Shown here: piece by piece, positions 57,301 to 64,000 of the stretch
Numbering within the stretch: the stretch's first letter is position 1
Layout of the letters: each line of letters opens with the position of its first letter
Source: Tumebacillus sp. BK434
GTDB taxonomy: Bacteria; Bacillota; Bacilli; Tumebacillales; Tumebacillaceae
NCBI RefSeq assembly: GCF_004340785.1
Contig: NZ_SLXS01000003.1
Span: 219,689 to 283,688, forward strand
Reading direction: 5' to 3'
DNA length: 64,000 nt
Position numbers and translations under genes: made by a program
The notes under the pieces: generated by a model
What the model was told of the DNA's origin: nothing
The model's input: the letters and a program-made list of their open reading frames with translations, nothing else
Database searches by the model: none

Positions 57301-57627
57301 ATGGCGAAACTGTACCGGGATATGAGCGCGGAGGAGCTGGCGGCGGAGATGAAGCGCCTGCAGGACGAAGGGCACCGCGCCTTGGCGGAGCACCGCTACG
57401 AGGAACTGGACGTGCTGGAGCGTAAATATTATTTGGCGCTTTCGTATACGATGGACAAAGATCTGATCAAGATCGGCAAGACCTACACGATCATCGACTC
57501 GAACGACCGCTTCGAAGTGACGCGGACGGACGGCGTGATGGCATGGGGCTATCTGAACGGGGTGCGGCTGGAAGAAGCGTACCCGTTTGCGATGCTGGTC
57601 GATCCGGAGCAAGGGGGCGGACAGTGA
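57301..57627 (+). CDS. yfhH: YfhH-family protein (DUF1811)
   Basis: A 108-residue protein. The N-terminal helix (YRDMSAEELAAEMKRLQDEG) and the small beta barrel (DLIKIGKTYTII then GVMAWGYLNG) match the Firmicute YfhH/DUF1811 family, function unknown. ATG behind AAAGGAGA. Its stop TGA overlaps the GTG start of the next gene, so translation is coupled. Confidence 0.85.
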   Translation: MAKLYRDMSAEELAAEMKRLQDEGHRALAEHRYEELDVLERKYYLALSYTMDKDLIKIGKTYTIIDSNDRFEVTRTDGVMAWGYLNGVRLEEAYPFAMLVDPEQGGGQ

Positions 57628-58247
57628 GCCGCAAGCACCGCCACCGCGAGAACAAAGTCAAGAAGATGCACACGATCATCGGCGGCTATGAGAAGGTGCT
57701 GGAGGAGTTGGGCGCGATCCCGCAGGTGCGCTCGGTGATCACCGGCGTCATCTCGCCGCACAAGTCGGAGACCGAAGAGCTGACGTTTCAATATTTCACC
57801 GATACGGGGCTCAAGCTGCTGGCGAAAACGACCGAAGCGATCCAAGAGATTTTCATCGTCTGCGAAGACAGTGACAAACAGCGGGTGCTGGAAGAGCTGC
57901 GCGCCCGCGGCCATCTGAAGGAGAAGGTGAAAAAGATGAAAAAAGGCAAAAGCAAACCGAAAAACAGCGGTCAATCTGCCGCCCAGCGCGACCCGCTGGA
58001 CAACTACCGCGTCGGCAAAGGCGACCTGCCGAAAGAAAAAGGCACCACGCTCAAAGACATGCTCAATCCGGAGATGCTGAAGAAGTTGCAAGCCAAGTCC
58101 TCCGAGATGAAAGAGCAGGAGCGCGCCCAAGACGAACAGCGCCGCCAAGCGGAGATCTCCCGCCGCGAAAAAGAGCAGAAAGCGCTCGAAAACAACTTCG
58201 AATACCTGCTCAAGAACTCCAAGCAGAACTGGAAAGACTTCAAATAG
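57624..58247 (+). CDS. DUF2103-like domain fused to a YqkE-like (DUF3886) tail
   Basis: A 207-residue basic protein. The first 95 residues (SRKHRHRENKVKKMHTIIGG, then VITGVISPHKSETEEL) resemble DUF2103, a predicted metal-binding domain. The middle is Lys-rich and disordered. The last 70 residues (LKDMLNPEMLKKLQAKSSEM then EKEQKALENNFEYLLKNS) match the YqkE/DUF3886 family. In Bacillus YqkE is a separate small protein. GTG start overlapping the end of yfhH. Function unknown; both domain matches are from memory. Confidence 0.75.
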   Translation: MSRKHRHRENKVKKMHTIIGGYEKVLEELGAIPQVRSVITGVISPHKSETEELTFQYFTDTGLKLLAKTTEAIQEIFIVCEDSDKQRVLEELRARGHLKEKVKKMKKGKSKPKNSGQSAAQRDPLDNYRVGKGDLPKEKGTTLKDMLNPEMLKKLQAKSSEMKEQERAQDEQRRQAEISRREKEQKALENNFEYLLKNSKQNWKDFK

Positions 58248-58279
58248 AAACGATAGCGGCGCACCCCTGCACTCCTAAC

Positions 58280-58320
58280 AAAAAGCCCTTGCCTGTATGT
58301 ATACAGGACAAGGGCTTTTT
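58280..58320 (+). terminator. Terminator of the yfhH operon
   Basis: AAAAAGCCCTTG / CAAGGGCTTTTT stem with an inner 6-bp stem. Confidence 0.92.
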
Positions 58321-58449
58321 ATCGAGCTTTCGTTTCCCGCGTGTCACAGCGACACCTTCTGAATCGATGGCCGGCACGGTCTGACAGGCGGCCAAGTATT
58401 CCTTCCGCCGTCCGGTGCCAACGCGAGGTGCAGGACAGGTCAGTTGGTG

Positions 58450-58869
58450 CTACTTCTTCCCTCCGGCCTGTTTCACAGCAGCTGGAACGACAGTCGGGCC
58501 GTTTGCGGCGCGTTTGACGGGCAGGACGGGGCGCAGATAGCGGTCGTAGAAGCCTTGGCGGGCCAGAAATGTATGCAAGGGGTCCTCGACGAACATGCGC
58601 CAGAGGACGCGGCGGCCGCCCGGCTCTGGAAAGATCACGTAGCGGCGCAACGGCTCTCCACTCAGGTCGGCCAGCCACAGGGATGTGACCGCTTCCAAGT
58701 CGCGCACCCGCTTGTACAGCAGATCCGCCCCGCACTTCAAGCAGGACGAAGCTTGCCACGGCACGTCTTCAAAACTGCCTTCCGACGTCGCGATCTCCTC
58801 AAAAGCTGCTCCGTTCGCTTCACAGTGCGGGCAGGTCACCCGCTCCCCGTAACACTCCTCAAATACCAT
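58450..58869 (-). CDS. Small double-CxxC (zinc-ribbon-like) protein under a ZTP riboswitch
   Basis: A 139-residue soluble protein. Two C-x-x-C knuckles (CPHC at 13-16, CLKC at 43-46) probably bind one zinc. A basic-aromatic C-terminal part contains RYVIFPEPGGRRVLWRMFVE. No family recognised. ATG start behind GGGAGG. The start lies 42 bases after an intrinsic terminator that belongs to a predicted ZTP riboswitch. The protein is therefore likely to have a role when 10-formyl-tetrahydrofolate or purine supply is low (inference from the riboswitch only). Confidence 0.75.
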   Translation of the reverse strand: MVFEECYGERVTCPHCEANGAAFEEIATSEGSFEDVPWQASSCLKCGADLLYKRVRDLEAVTSLWLADLSGEPLRRYVIFPEPGGRRVLWRMFVEDPLHTFLARQGFYDRYLRPVLPVKRAANGPTVVPAAVKQAGGKK

Positions 58870-58911
58870 CTCAACACGCCTCCCTCTCTATCCTGACGAT
58901 GCTCGGCTCAG

Positions 58912-58965
58912 AAAAAGACAAAACCGCCCTGAGCCTTGGATATAATCCAAAGGTGCCCAGGCGGT
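58912..58965 (-). terminator. Regulated terminator (expression platform) of the ZTP riboswitch
   Basis: Long stem ACCGCC.TGGG.CCTTTGGAT / ATCCAAGG.CTCA.GGCGGT followed on the minus strand by TTTTGTCTTTTT. Its 5' arm CCGCC (58960-58964) is the same segment that forms the riboswitch pseudoknot, so the two structures exclude each other. Confidence 0.85.
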
Positions 58966-59031
58966 CGGCTATGTTTGTTCCTCTCGCACTCCCTCGTGGT
59001 ACACTCCACGTTTCCGCCAGTTATGCGAGAC
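58954..59031 (-). ncRNA. Predicted ZTP (pfl) riboswitch aptamer
   Basis: On the minus strand: P1 TCTCGCA (59024-59030) / TGCGAGA (58982-58988); ACTGGCGG (59014-59021); P2 CGTGG-AGTGTA-CCACG (58995-59010); GGGAG; then after a short linker the conserved CCGCCTGGGCA (58954-58964). These match the ZTP/ZMP riboswitch consensus in order and sequence. GGCGG (59014-59018) can pair with CCGCC (58960-58964), the known pseudoknot. Ligand binding would disrupt the downstream terminator, an ON switch. Confidence 0.85.
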
Positions 59032-59327
59032 GGTTCTCAGTTGTAAGGCTGTCAGCAATCCAATTCGATGCGAGCTTTCTTGTTGAGCTTTCTTGTTGAG
59101 CTTTCTTGTTGCTCTCTTTTTCAGCTCTCTGTATCGAGTATTTTCCTCGATCTCTCTCTCTTGATTCTAAATCATTTTCCGATTCCTGACAAGCCACACT
59201 GCTGCCGAGAGCGAATGCCCGCATTTCCGGCGCTTCCCCAAGCGCCGTCCCCCCCGGGTACCGGCACCCGCTCTCCCGTGGCAGCTCGTAATTCGCTGCT
59301 TCACTGCTTTAAATAAGTGCATCCCCC
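59032..59327 (-). ncRNA. Long structured leader RNA upstream of the ZTP riboswitch
   Basis: About 300 nt lie between the promoter and the aptamer. A 13-bp stem (GCTGCC + GAGAGCG at 59269-59285 pairing with 59201-59213) encloses a junction with hairpins at 59214-59225 (AATG/CATT) and 59229-59246 (GGCGCTT/AAGCGCC), plus a GC-rich third arm. An AG-rich stretch with three 13-bp repeats follows. It does not match a riboswitch or ncRNA class I know. A 51-codon frame (59322-59167) overlaps it but starts only 5 bases after the predicted transcript start. This region and the riboswitch fill the 535-base gap with no other gene. Confidence 0.5.
59072..59110. repeat. 13-bp tandem repeat, three copies
   Basis: Three identical copies of GAGCTTTCTTGTT (plus strand) inside the long leader of the riboswitch-controlled gene. 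Confidence 0.95.
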
Positions 59328-59333
59328 AAGAAC

Positions 59334-59362
59334 ATTATACGACATAATTTTCGGTCTTTCAA
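59334..59362 (-). promoter_or_regulatory. Sigma-A type promoter of the ZTP-controlled transcript
   Basis: Minus strand TTGAAA (59357-59362), 17-bp spacer, TATAAT (59334-59339), a near-consensus vegetative promoter. Transcript start is expected near 59327, about 295 nt before the aptamer. Confidence 0.85.
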
Positions 59363-59404
59363 CATAAATAGACAGAAATTTAATAATAATCGAACAAAAA
59401 TCGG

Positions 59405-59785
59405 TTAGCGCACAAACATCGTCGACAGGTAGAACAGCACGCTGTACAAAAACGCGCTGCCAAGCCAAATCCACACGCTGTCCTTGTTCGACCGCGCATA
59501 CGCCCGGTACGGCAGCAACGCGCCCCACAAGCCGCCGACATAGACGCTGAGCACAAACAGCACTTTCGCGCCGCCGCCGACATCGCCTGCCTGCGCCAGC
59601 CCGTACAGGTACAGGCCGAGGTAGGTCGCAAACAGCCAGGTCACGAGGAACCCGACGATCCAATAGATCAGCATCGCGCCGATGCTGTCCACCGCCTGCT
59701 GGTATTTCGCCTTGCGCTTGATCACATAAAACAGCCACACCACCGCAAGCAGCGGCAGAAGCAGCGTGATGATCAGTTTCGTCAT
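59405..59785 (-). CDS. Small multi-pass membrane protein
   Basis: A 126-residue protein with four membrane helices (about 4-22, 35-60, 75-95, 105-124). Pattern IITLLLPLLAVVWLFYVIKR opens it. No family recognised. Its ATG overlaps the TGA of the upstream small gene, so the two are translationally coupled. Confidence 0.7.
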   Translation of the reverse strand: MTKLIITLLLPLLAVVWLFYVIKRKAKYQQAVDSIGAMLIYWIVGFLVTWLFATYLGLYLYGLAQAGDVGGGAKVLFVLSVYVGGLWGALLPYRAYARSNKDSVWIWLGSAFLYSVLFYLSTMFVR

Positions 59786-60066: not shown

Positions 60067-60675
60067 CTATTTTTTCCGCACCATTTCAAACGTATCGGTG
60101 ACGCGCACATAGTCGGCCCCGGCGAGACGTCCGATCGGCTGGAGTTTTGCGGTGTCGATCTTGCCGTCAAAATGAATCTCATCGTCGACGTGCACCTGCA
60201 CGACCTGTCCGATCACCAGCGACCCGGCGCCTTTGCCTTCGCCGATGTGTACGATCTCGGTCAGTTTGCATTCGAAATTGACCAGCGACTCCTTGACGCG
60301 CGGCGCTTTGACGACCGTGCTCGGCGCAGGCGTCAGGCCCGACTCGGCGAACTCGGAGACGCCGTGCGGGAATTCGGCAGCCGTCGCGTTCATCTGGTTG
60401 GCGAACGATTCGGAGACGATGTTGACGACAAATTCCTTGGTGTGCTCAATGTTGACCAAGGTGTCCTTCTTCTCACCGTCGGTGCCGCGGCGCATGACGG
60501 AAAAGCAGATCGTCAGCGGATTCGCCGCCACCGCGGTGAAGAAGGAGAACGGCGCGAGGTTGGTGTTCCCTGCTTCATCGACCGTGGAGACAAAAGCGAT
60601 TGGACGCGGCAGGATCGCCCCGTTCAGGTATTTGTAAGCAGCTTCCCAAGAGAGTGTTGCCGGATCGAGTTGCAT
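60067..60675 (-). CDS. Flavin reductase-like protein (flavoredoxin family)
   Basis: A 202-residue FMN-binding split-barrel protein of the flavin reductase/flavoredoxin type (ILPRPIAFVSTVDEAGNTNL then FSFFTAVAANPLTICFSV, about 21-62). Such proteins reduce flavin or serve as FMN carriers for oxygenases. It is the last gene of the operon with hppD, fah and hmgA (gap of 19 bases to hmgA). Which oxygenase it serves is unclear, as the homogentisate enzymes do not need flavin. Confidence 0.85.
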   Translation of the reverse strand: MQLDPATLSWEAAYKYLNGAILPRPIAFVSTVDEAGNTNLAPFSFFTAVAANPLTICFSVMRRGTDGEKKDTLVNIEHTKEFVVNIVSESFANQMNATAAEFPHGVSEFAESGLTPAPSTVVKAPRVKESLVNFECKLTEIVHIGEGKGAGSLVIGQVVQVHVDDEIHFDGKIDTAKLQPIGRLAGADYVRVTDTFEMVRKK

Positions 60676-60694
60676 AGAAGGTTCCTCTCTTTCT

Positions 60695-61855
60695 TTACGC
60701 TTTCGGTGGCAGCCAGGAGTACATGTAGTTCTCGTCTTCCACCTTATGCGCAGCTTTGGCGATATGGAGCGGCTTGAACGTGTCGACCATCACGGCCAGC
60801 TCGTTGGTTTCCTTTTTGCCGATCGACGCTTCGATCGTGCCCGGATGCGGGCCGTGCGGGATGCCCATCGGATGCAGGGTGACCGAGCCTTCTTCGATGC
60901 CTTTGCGGCTCATAAAGTTGCCGTCGACGTAGTACAAGACTTCGTCCGACTCGATGTTCGAGTGGTAGTACGGCGCCGGAATCGCCAGCGGATGGTAATC
61001 GTACAGGCGCGGCACGAACGAGCAGATGACAAACCCTTCGGCCTGGAAGGTCTGATGCACCGGCGGCGGCTGGTGCAGACGCCCGGTGATCGGCTCGAAG
61101 TCCCCGATGTTGAATGCGTACGGGAACAGGTAGCCGTCCCAGCCCGCCACGTCGAGCGGATGGAAGTCGAAAATGTACGAGTGCAGCATGTCACGCGATT
61201 TGACGCGGACTTCGAACTCGCCTTTTTCATCGTGGGTGATCAGCTCAGACGGCGGACGGATGTCGCGCTCGTAGAACGGCGCATGCTCTTCGAGCTGCCC
61301 GTGCTCATTGCGGTAGCGGCGCGGCACTTTGATCATCGACGCCGACTCGATCACGAAAAAGCGGCTCGGGGTGTTCATCACCACGCGGTAGGTCGTGCCG
61401 ACCGGGATGACGAGGTAGTCCCCTTTGCCGTAGGTCAGGTTGCCGAAGATCGTCTCCAGCACGCCTTCGCCTTCGTGGACGAACAAGACTTCGTCACAGT
61501 CGGAGTTGCGATAGTAGTAATCCATCGCTGCGGTCGGCTTGGAGATCGCCAGCGACACGTCGCTGTTGAACATCAGCACTTGGCGGGAATCGATCGGGTC
61601 GCCGGAGAGCTCAGCGCGGTGCGCCAGGAAGTGGCGATGCTTCAGCGCGCCCTGCTCTTCTTTTTCGATCACGATGTCACGAATCTTCTCGACCCGCGTC
61701 ACTTGCGTCGGCGGATTGATGTGATACGTCAGCGAATAGATGTCGGAAAAGCCTTTCGTCGACATCAGCTGTTCGCGGTACAAGGAGCCGTCAGCCTGGC
61801 GGAACTGCGTGTGGCGTTTCGCCGGCACTTGGCCCAGTTTATGATAAAACGGCAC
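60695..61855 (-). CDS. hmgA: Homogentisate 1,2-dioxygenase
   Basis: A 386-residue cupin-type iron enzyme that opens the ring of homogentisate to maleylacetoacetate. Family segments include CDEVLFVHEGEGVLETIFG (about 119-137), the iron-ligand region GIPHGPHPGTIEAS (about 331-344) and the ESDEVLYYVDG strand. Length fits the bacterial class shorter than the ~430-residue proteobacterial form. GTG start behind GAGGAGG. Third gene of the tyrosine catabolic operon. Confidence 0.9.
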   Translation of the reverse strand: MPFYHKLGQVPAKRHTQFRQADGSLYREQLMSTKGFSDIYSLTYHINPPTQVTRVEKIRDIVIEKEEQGALKHRHFLAHRAELSGDPIDSRQVLMFNSDVSLAISKPTAAMDYYYRNSDCDEVLFVHEGEGVLETIFGNLTYGKGDYLVIPVGTTYRVVMNTPSRFFVIESASMIKVPRRYRNEHGQLEEHAPFYERDIRPPSELITHDEKGEFEVRVKSRDMLHSYIFDFHPLDVAGWDGYLFPYAFNIGDFEPITGRLHQPPPVHQTFQAEGFVICSFVPRLYDYHPLAIPAPYYHSNIESDEVLYYVDGNFMSRKGIEEGSVTLHPMGIPHGPHPGTIEASIGKKETNELAVMVDTFKPLHIAKAAHKVEDENYMYSWLPPKA

Positions 61856-61887
61856 AGCTTCTGCCTCCTCTCTGGATTCAAGTTCGT

Positions 61888-62850
61888 CTATTTTACCCGG
61901 TTCTTCAAGACCCCGAGCCGTTCGATTTCCAGTTCCACCACGTCACCGGGCACAAGCCAGCGGTGTACCTCGGTGCCGAGCTCGAGAATGCAGCCGGTGC
62001 CGACCGTGCCCGAGCCGATCACATCGCCTGGATAGAGCGTCACACCGTCCGAAGCACGGGCGATCAGCTCCGCGAAGGAGAAGTAGATCGTGCCGAAATT
62101 GCCGCGCGACAACTCCTGTCCATTCACTTTCGCCGTCATCGTCAGCTGCCAGCGGTCGCCGTCGCGCACGTCCTCCAGCTCGTCGAGCGTCAGCAGGTAC
62201 GGGCCCATCGACGTGGCAAAGTCCTTGCCTTTCGCCGGGCCCAGGCCCACCTTCACCTCTTCGCGCTGCACGTCGCGGGCCGACCAGTCGTTGAGCACGG
62301 CAAACCCAGCGATGTGCGCCGCCGCCTCTTCCGGCTTGATGTCGCGCCCCGTCTTGCCGATCACGCAGGCGATCTCCAGCTCATAGTCGAGCCATTCGGT
62401 ATACGCCGGGCACTCGACGTCCGCATCGGGGCCGACAAACGCGTTGTGGTTGGAGAAATAAAACACCGGAAAGTCGTACCACTCCGGCACCATGTCGAGC
62501 CCGCGGCGGCCCCGTGCCGTCTTCACATGCTCTTCAAACGCATAGAAGTCGCGGAACGAGCGCGGACGGGGCAGCGGCGCCAGCAGATGCGCTTCCGAGA
62601 GCGGCAGGGCAAAAGGAAGTTCGGCTGCCGGCGTTTCTGCGGTCGCTTCGGCGATGGCGCGCGCCCGGTCCAGCCCGCTGCCTTCCGCTTCCAATATCCC
62701 GGCCATCGTGACAGGAAGAGGACGTTGCATCGCACAACGTCCTTGCTCCTGCGCCCAAGACTCGGCGAGCGCGAGGTCGAGCACATGATCGTGCTGCAGA
62801 TACCCCGCCCGTTCGCCCAATTCTTTGTGCAGATACGATACGAGTTTCAT
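61888..62850 (-). CDS. Fumarylacetoacetate hydrolase-family protein
   Basis: A 320-residue FAH-family enzyme. Metal-binding Glu/Asp pattern YELEIACVIGKTGRDI (about 148-163) and DWSARDVQREE, SFAELIARAS then VTLYPGDVIGSGTVGTG are typical. In this operon it should cleave fumarylacetoacetate to fumarate and acetoacetate. It is shorter than the ~420-residue eukaryote/proteobacterial FAH. Starts at ATG overlapping the TAA of hppD. No maleylacetoacetate isomerase gene is in the operon. Confidence 0.88.
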   Translation of the reverse strand: MKLVSYLHKELGERAGYLQHDHVLDLALAESWAQEQGRCAMQRPLPVTMAGILEAEGSGLDRARAIAEATAETPAAELPFALPLSEAHLLAPLPRPRSFRDFYAFEEHVKTARGRRGLDMVPEWYDFPVFYFSNHNAFVGPDADVECPAYTEWLDYELEIACVIGKTGRDIKPEEAAAHIAGFAVLNDWSARDVQREEVKVGLGPAKGKDFATSMGPYLLTLDELEDVRDGDRWQLTMTAKVNGQELSRGNFGTIYFSFAELIARASDGVTLYPGDVIGSGTVGTGCILELGTEVHRWLVPGDVVELEIERLGVLKNRVK

Positions 62851-63950
62851 TACAGGGTGCCGCGACGCTCTTGTTCGCGCTCGATCGCTTCGAACAGCGC
62901 CTTGAAGTTGCCTTTGCCGAAGCTCTTCGCGCCTTTGCGCTGGATGATCTCAAAGAAGAAGGTCGGGCGGTCCATGATCGGCTTGGTGAAGATCTGGAGC
63001 AGGTAGCCGTCTTCGTCACGGTCGACGAGCAGGTTCAGCTTCTTGATCTCTTCGATCTCCTCGTCGATCTCGCCGACGCGGCTCTTCAGGTCTTCGTAGT
63101 AGGTGTCCGGAACGTTGAGGAACTCGACGCCGTTCTCGCGCAGTTTCGCAACCGTTTCGATGATGTCATGGGTGAGCAGCGCCATGTGCTGTGCGCCCGG
63201 ACCGTTGTAGAAGTCGAGGTACTCTTCGATCTGCGATTTCTTCTTGCCTTGCGCCGGCTCGTTGATCGGGAACTTGATGCGGCCAGTGCCGTTTTGCATC
63301 ACTTTCGACATCAGCGCCGTGTATTCGGTGGAGATGTCGTTGTCGTCGAAGGAGATCAGTTGGGTGAAGCCCAACACCTGCGCATAGTAGTCCATCCATT
63401 CGTTCATCTTGCCTTCTTCCACGTTGCCGACGATGTGGTCGCAGGCGACGAGGCCGGTGTCGTTGACCGGCATCTTGCCGGTGTAGGCTTGGAAGCCCGG
63501 CAGGAAGATGCCTTTGTAGTTGTCGCGCTCGACAAATGTATGCAGGGTCTCGCCATAAGTATAGATCGCCGCCAGTTTGACGGTGCCGTTTTCATCGGAG
63601 ATTTCTTTCGGTTCGAACGCAGATTTCGCGCCGCGCTTGATCGCCTCTTGGTACGCGGCCGCTGCATCGTCGACGCGCATCGCGATGTCTTTGACGCCGT
63701 CGCCGTGCACTTTCACGTGCTCTGCGATCTCGTTGTCCTGCACCAGGGTGCCGGTGAGGACGATGTTGATGTCGCCCGACTGCATCAAATAAGAAACGCG
63801 GTCACGGGAGCCCGTCTCAAGACCTTTGTACGCGACCGGCTTGAAGCCATACGCGCCGGCGAGGTAGTAGGCCGCCTGTTTCGCGTTCCCTACATAAAAC
63901 TCTACAAAATCGACATGACGAAGCGGTAAAAAGTCCATTTGTTCTGCCAT
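62850..63950 (-). CDS. hppD: 4-hydroxyphenylpyruvate dioxygenase
   Basis: A 366-residue non-haem iron enzyme making homogentisate from 4-hydroxyphenylpyruvate. Two vicinal-oxygen-chelate domains; iron ligands visible as His in VACDHIVGNV (about 168), His in AQHMALLTHDI (about 250) and Glu in FFFEIIQRKG (about 332). I use ATG 63950 (8 bases after GGGGG); ATG 63956 is only 2 bases from it. It is the first gene of the operon; its promoter lies at the window edge. Confidence 0.94.
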   Translation of the reverse strand: MAEQMDFLPLRHVDFVEFYVGNAKQAAYYLAGAYGFKPVAYKGLETGSRDRVSYLMQSGDINIVLTGTLVQDNEIAEHVKVHGDGVKDIAMRVDDAAAAYQEAIKRGAKSAFEPKEISDENGTVKLAAIYTYGETLHTFVERDNYKGIFLPGFQAYTGKMPVNDTGLVACDHIVGNVEEGKMNEWMDYYAQVLGFTQLISFDDNDISTEYTALMSKVMQNGTGRIKFPINEPAQGKKKSQIEEYLDFYNGPGAQHMALLTHDIIETVAKLRENGVEFLNVPDTYYEDLKSRVGEIDEEIEEIKKLNLLVDRDEDGYLLQIFTKPIMDRPTFFFEIIQRKGAKSFGKGNFKALFEAIEREQERRGTL

Positions 63951-64000
63951 TTCCATATTCCCCCTACTATAAAAGGTCTCTCGAAAAGTAGACTTCCCTC

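Follow-up and report, generated by a model that had tools for sequence, protein, structure and literature searches.

The window, that is the whole stretch of DNA analysed here, comprises 64,000 nt of Tumebacillus sp. BK434 (GCF_004340785.1, NZ_SLXS01000003.1, positions 219,689-283,688 of the forward strand). On its minus strand lie, in the direction of transcription, a likely promoter (59164..59192), a ZMP/ZTP riboswitch aptamer (58948..59034), an expression platform with an intrinsic terminator (58909..58964), a Shine-Dalgarno-like motif (58879..58885) and the gene of a 139-residue protein (58450..58869), hereafter the orphan protein, followed by a probable transcript-end hairpin with a T run (58275..58325). 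ZTP riboswitches sense ZMP/ZTP, the signal of low 10-formyl-THF, and their usual targets are purine and folate genes (purH, folD, glyA, fhs).

Aptamer, terminator and transcript of the orphan gene

The aptamer was identified by the covariance model RF01750, which matched positions 59034-58948 of the minus strand over the full model (model positions 1-86) at 64.8 bits, where the gathering threshold is 39, with an E-value of 3.2e-8 for the entire window against 4227 families and of 2.8e-10 in a local scan. It is the sole gathering-level Rfam match across the 64-kb window, and a genome-wide search found no second ZTP riboswitch in the assembly, which is 97.85% complete. The alignment and pair table place P1 at 59032-59023 with 58989-58980 (9 of 10 pairs form), followed by the core AACTGGCGG, P2 (GTGG/CCAC), GGGA and CCGCCTGGGC, so that P1, P2, P3 and the conserved core blocks CTGGCGG, CCAC..GGGA and CCGCCTGGGC are all present in order, and GGCGG at 59018-59014 is complementary to CCGCC at 58964-58960, giving the potential for a pseudoknot. 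In a plain energy fold the aptamer alone was no better than its shuffles (z -0.40; 68 of 200 folded as well); since the folding program cannot form a pseudoknot, it is the covariance model and the relatives that support the aptamer. The original prediction, made from the DNA letters, had listed the ZTP aptamer elements in the right order and had proposed RF01750 on the minus strand as a check; the score, the alignment and the pair table bear it out. The region it had delimited does hold the riboswitch, although its end at 59031 misses 3 bases of the aptamer as modelled. The RNA is thus almost certainly a ZTP riboswitch.

The 3' strand of the aptamer, CCGCCTGGGC, also provides the 5' arm of the intrinsic terminator, whose hairpin (58964-58924) folds at -24.2 kcal/mol in context with a z-score of -3.17 (matched by 2 of 200 shuffles) and runs into the T-rich tail TTTTGTCTTTTT. 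CCGCC is accordingly both a strand of the potential aptamer pseudoknot and part of the terminator hairpin, as had been predicted, and the same arrangement was recovered by hairpin folding in all six riboswitch-bearing genomes of the family, where the terminator hairpins starting at CCGCC range from -20.6 to -24.4 kcal/mol and the T tail is weakest in G005. The motif AGGGAGG, read from the sequence, lies outside the terminator and nine bases 5' of the ATG start of the orphan gene. Upstream, the likely riboswitch promoter TTGTCA-17-TAGAAT matches 10 of 12 consensus positions, and TTGTCA-17-TACAAT stands at the equivalent place in two further genomes of the genus (G001 and G002), the spacer differing in G002.

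Downstream of the orphan gene the next gene lies on the opposite strand (57543-58247, plus strand), and the strong T-run hairpin between the two (-29.9 kcal/mol, z -9.0) probably ends the transcript; as it faces the convergent gene, it may work in both directions. A generic terminator scan of 58200-59450 returned no terminators, though both hairpins fold well. With this hairpin and the convergent gene beyond its 3' end, the orphan gene is probably monocistronic here, which agrees, for the window, with the earlier claim that only one gene lies downstream. Its 3' end overlaps the following gene by ATGA in G003 and G006 (L006 and L008), the overlapping gene of G006 being glycosyltransferase-like; the gene is therefore not monocistronic in every genome. 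The convergent neighbour encodes DUF2103 (predicted metal-binding) and DUF3886 domains, and L050 and L051 have genes resembling it by eye beside the orphan gene. On the other side of the locus, 60067-63956 of the minus strand holds genes that by eye resemble those of tyrosine/homogentisate catabolism (dioxygenases, a fumarylacetoacetase-like and a flavin reductase-like gene).

Several other features were observed upstream of the riboswitch. A structured RNA region (59329-59192, minus strand), preceded by a promoter-like, near-consensus TTGAAA-17-TATAAT at 59362-59334, is predicted to fold into a long, branched stem with 40 pairs, of which two show double-sided changes and three are broken or gapped in one sequence. 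It was present in 3/3 genomes of the window's genus, absent from the 11 other genomes of the order by DNA search and without an Rfam match, and it is possibly a new small RNA or a tandem leader element; a coding reading was rejected, the frame from its ATG being stopped early in G001. A 13-base tandem repeat, GAGCTTTCTTGTT, present in about three copies at 59111-59072, lies between the aptamer and its likely promoter; G001 and G002, the relatives aligned here, lack it. All four genomes of the sister genus have an adenine deaminase gene that ends shortly before the riboswitch or, in G006, before the orphan gene itself (L053, 5410-7209; L051, L052 and L054; domains were named for one of them), and in the window's genus all three genomes show no more than weak matches to its protein. 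A promoter-like site matching 9 of 12 positions separates the adenine deaminase gene from the aptamer in G005; the same scan found none in G003, G004 and G006.

The orphan protein and its conservation in the Tumebacillus family

The orphan protein carries two CxxC pairs, C13/C16 (CPHC, near the N-terminus) and C43/C46, 26 residues further, and all four cysteines are invariant in the seven orthologues, which measure 130-142 residues and share 61-87% identity with the window's protein. Conservation is highest in the C-terminal half, with 38 of 51 positions invariant in residues 62-112 against 27 of 61 in residues 1-61, and this conserved half is rich in arginine and aromatic residues. The gene has a dN/dS of 0.06-0.26 in the 19 of 21 pairs that allowed its calculation, two pairs lacking a usable dS, and the protein is under purifying selection.

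No family was assigned to the window's protein by Pfam, NCBIfam or PHROGs (two PHROGs matches, both with E > 0.1), and a PDB sequence search gave two matches, both with E > 1; the earlier description of a 139-residue protein with two CxxC knuckles and no recognised family therefore stands. PF12760, the zinc ribbon of IS1595 transposases, exceeded its 25.4-bit cut-off in two of the seven orthologues, where its best stretch spans 21-22 of the 46 profile positions, and gave the window's own protein 13.4 bits, far below that cut-off. The CxxC knuckle is common to the orphan protein and to the zinc ribbons PF12760 and PF14354 (Lar), but no transposase catalytic domain was matched in the orphan protein and the PF12760 profile is covered in part. 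Two AlphaFold2 models were built from three-row alignments, one with a mean pLDDT of 57.8 and one, of the T. permanentifrigoris orthologue (residues 1-115), with 67.9. Foldseek found nothing at E 0.001 or below with either of these uncertain models; VIA-align reached a best Z of 4.8 (rmsd 3.9, 66 aligned) with these low-confidence models, its rows being mostly beta-barrel proteins, and no zinc-ribbon protein stands out among the structure-search matches listed. Neither the sequence of the orphan protein nor its predicted fold holds anything indicating folates. Because the four cysteines are invariant, the family-model matches being marginal, the protein likely binds zinc.

The distribution of the protein is narrow. 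A protein search of 101 genomes (the window's own and 100 relatives) recovered it in seven, all of one family, and a profile search in all seven genomes of that family (Tumebacillus and its kin, among them Tumebacillus avium and T. permanentifrigoris) and in none of seven other genomes of the order. No relatives were found in plasmids and phages at E 0.01, no convincing one in 397 other genomes of the phylum (profile search, at most about ten candidates scored in each), and none with the C-terminal 60 residues against 391 genomes of the class outside the family, a sample that overlaps the former. Two partial matches in the phylum (E 0.006 and 0.009; one region holds ribosomal-protein genes by eye) and nine in the class (E 4e-4 to 5e-3; three were read and show no likeness beyond the matched stretch) were taken as chance, four of these 11 regions having been read, since per-genome E-values make such matches expected among hundreds of genomes.

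Within the family, six of the seven genomes, the window's included, have RF01750 immediately 5' of the orphan gene, and under stricter filters for the relatives no second ZTP riboswitch was found in any of these six. The exception is G006, which keeps the orphan protein and in which no ZTP aptamer was found at either threshold; riboswitch control is therefore not indispensable. In P1, standard-pair changes on both sides occurred at pairs 3, 4, 6 and 9 of 10. The depth of this covariation is modest, the six sequences representing three distinct P1 versions; 7-9 of the 10 pairs form across the six genomes, with 7 in G005, and the two outer pairs fail to form in the sister genus, so that few independent changes stand behind it. 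The core blocks are invariant and the GGCGG and CCGCC strands complementary in 6/6; as these strands never vary, there is no covariation for or against the pseudoknot. Both outcomes that the original prediction had looked for in relatives, homologues that also follow ZTP riboswitches (6/7) and covariation (four P1 pairs, at this modest depth), were thus obtained. The aptamer, the strand-sharing terminator, the gene and their joint conservation are accordingly established as read from sequence and comparison, and on the same footing the pairing of riboswitch and orphan gene is old.

Genes that follow ZTP riboswitches in other families

First genes were collected from 52 ZTP loci outside the family, made up of 24 of the 33 non-family RF01750 matches and 28 new loci (of 30 given), a sample that leans to strong matches as the loci come mostly from the best-scoring ones. 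They were clustered by BLASTP (E 1e-10) and one representative per cluster was named by its best family model. The first gene was pfl at 20 loci, serA at 11, TIGR01440 at five, folD, fhs and an MFS transporter (best model L-lactate MFS) at three each, purT and purH at two each, and serC, a class-V aminotransferase and a DJ-1/PfpI gene at one each. The representatives of serA, fhs, purH, TIGR01440 and MFS scored above curated NCBIfam cut-offs and that of pfl above its Pfam cut-off; folD, purT and serC carry the names of their best models, under the NCBIfam cut-offs in the matches listed, and the purT and serC representatives are cut by the locus end. Enzymes of one-carbon, purine, serine and formate metabolism (pfl, serA, folD, fhs, purT, purH and serC) thus account for 42 of the 52, and the orphan gene for none of these loci in other families. 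This survey agrees with Weinberg et al. 2010 (PMC2864571), in which terminators overlap pfl RNAs and the targets belong to purine and formyl-THF metabolism, and with a 2020 review (PMC7266159).

In the other families of the order, the switch precedes a serA, folD, serC, purT or class-V aminotransferase gene in nine of ten matches examined, and the relatives G007, G011 and G012 each have a single ZTP switch, on serA. Non-canonical first genes do occur elsewhere, namely that of the DJ-1/PfpI family protein (L027, 842-1492) and those of the MFS transporters (L085, L091 and L097); an orphan target therefore need not be a folate gene. The closest parallel is TIGR01440, likewise a small uncharacterised protein encoded by the first gene (5/52 loci, representative L029), but these genes adjoin a glyA-like gene (5/5, by eye) whereas the orphan gene stands alone in the window, and the TIGR01440 model does not match the orphan protein.

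Compared with the pfl switch of C. beijerinckii (PMC10085676), the RNA in the window has in common the full aptamer model, the GGCGG/CCGCC pseudoknot potential, a terminator formed from the aptamer's 3' strand and a 5' UTR position; it differs in its target, which here is the orphan protein and not a purine, folate, serine or formate gene. The RNA is ordinary for the ZTP class and the novelty lies in the target gene. No report of a ZTP riboswitch with the orphan gene was found in the literature searched, and the lists in Kim et al. 2015 and in the supplement of Weinberg 2010 may include the gene; no paper on Tumebacillus with a riboswitch was found.

Proposed role of the riboswitch and its target

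By analogy with strand displacement in the pfl switch of C. beijerinckii (PMC10085676), a shortage of 10-formyl-THF would raise ZMP/ZTP, and the bound ligand would hold the GGCGG/CCGCC pseudoknot and keep the CCGCC strand from the terminator, allowing RNA polymerase to continue into the orphan gene. With no ligand bound, invasion by the downstream strand would let the terminator form, and the gene would be off. The riboswitch is thus very probably of the transcriptional ON type, the ligand, the direction of the response and the folate-stress setting being those we infer from the riboswitch class. Both purH and fhs are present in 7/7 genomes of the family, so that ZMP and 10-formyl-THF metabolism is present there, and the adenine deaminase gene next to the locus in the sister genus also speaks for a setting of this kind. 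Since established purine and folate genes are the customary targets of ZTP switches, the orphan protein probably belongs to the response to folate stress as a component not recognised before, and its place in the one-carbon stress response, as originally proposed, is a fair reading of the switch and of the genes behind such switches elsewhere; its action in folate or purine stress is held to be likely, and the reading as a whole, a ZTP ON-switch with a lineage-specific folate-stress effector as its target, is put forward with considerable confidence. Given the pair of cysteine knuckles, a conserved half rich in arginine and aromatic residues and the lack of any recognised catalytic family, the protein could tentatively be seen as a small zinc-ribbon adaptor or regulator binding protein or nucleic acid rather than as an enzyme, a guess that we place somewhat short of even. 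A bolder and rather unlikely extension is that the ZTP alarm has been rewired, the lone riboswitch driving a small zinc-ribbon protein that would act in trans, as regulator or allosteric adaptor, on switch-less purine and one-carbon enzymes. This fits the finding of no other ZTP riboswitch in these genomes; the single serA switches of G007, G011 and G012 imply that one switch per genome is not unusual in itself. If true, it would to our knowledge be without precedent as a protein relay dedicated to the ZTP alarmone.

The riboswitch might instead be inherited baggage which, after the loss of a former one-carbon target, now stands by chance before an unrelated gene to which it is of little benefit. 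The presence of the orphan gene without the RNA in G006 would suit this, as would the targets in the other families of the order, which differ from the orphan gene and so make it a derived or displaced target. However, a useless switch should decay, and six of the seven genomes have retained both aptamer and terminator despite strong synonymous divergence of the gene across the genera (dS 0.90-2.65 in the 11 of 12 cross-genus pairs that allowed its calculation), with the P1 changes being double-sided; this explanation is considered improbable.

A role of the orphan protein in zinc homeostasis or zinc sparing, with the switch linking folate and zinc, has a rationale in that folate synthesis includes a zinc-dependent enzyme (GTP cyclohydrolase), and the four invariant cysteines and the convergent neighbour with its predicted metal-binding DUF2103 are in keeping with it. 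Against it, no metal-homeostasis family was matched in Pfam or in NCBIfam (the latter for the window's protein only), and no zinc transporter or regulator was seen among the few neighbours scanned. The zinc-sparing factor of the original prediction consequently found no real support, the metal link coming down to the one convergent neighbour and zinc binding to the cysteines and marginal model matches, and we regard this role as very improbable. Equally hard to credit is a ZTP look-alike with altered ligand specificity, a phenomenon known in other riboswitch classes and suggested here by the unusual target, given that the full-length score falls within the 41.5-69.3 bit range of 39 RF01750 matches and near the 65.2 bits of a switch before serA in the order (L018), and that the core blocks are unchanged in 6/6.

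Taken together, the favoured reading remains that of a ZTP ON-switch controlling a folate-stress effector peculiar to this lineage. As ZTP switches mostly precede genes at the junction of 10-formyl-THF and purine metabolism, the orphan gene, which stands under the only ZTP switch found and is kept in this arrangement in six of seven genomes of the family, is a promising starting point for finding a folate-stress factor so far overlooked, and the finding may bear on the response to antifolate stress.
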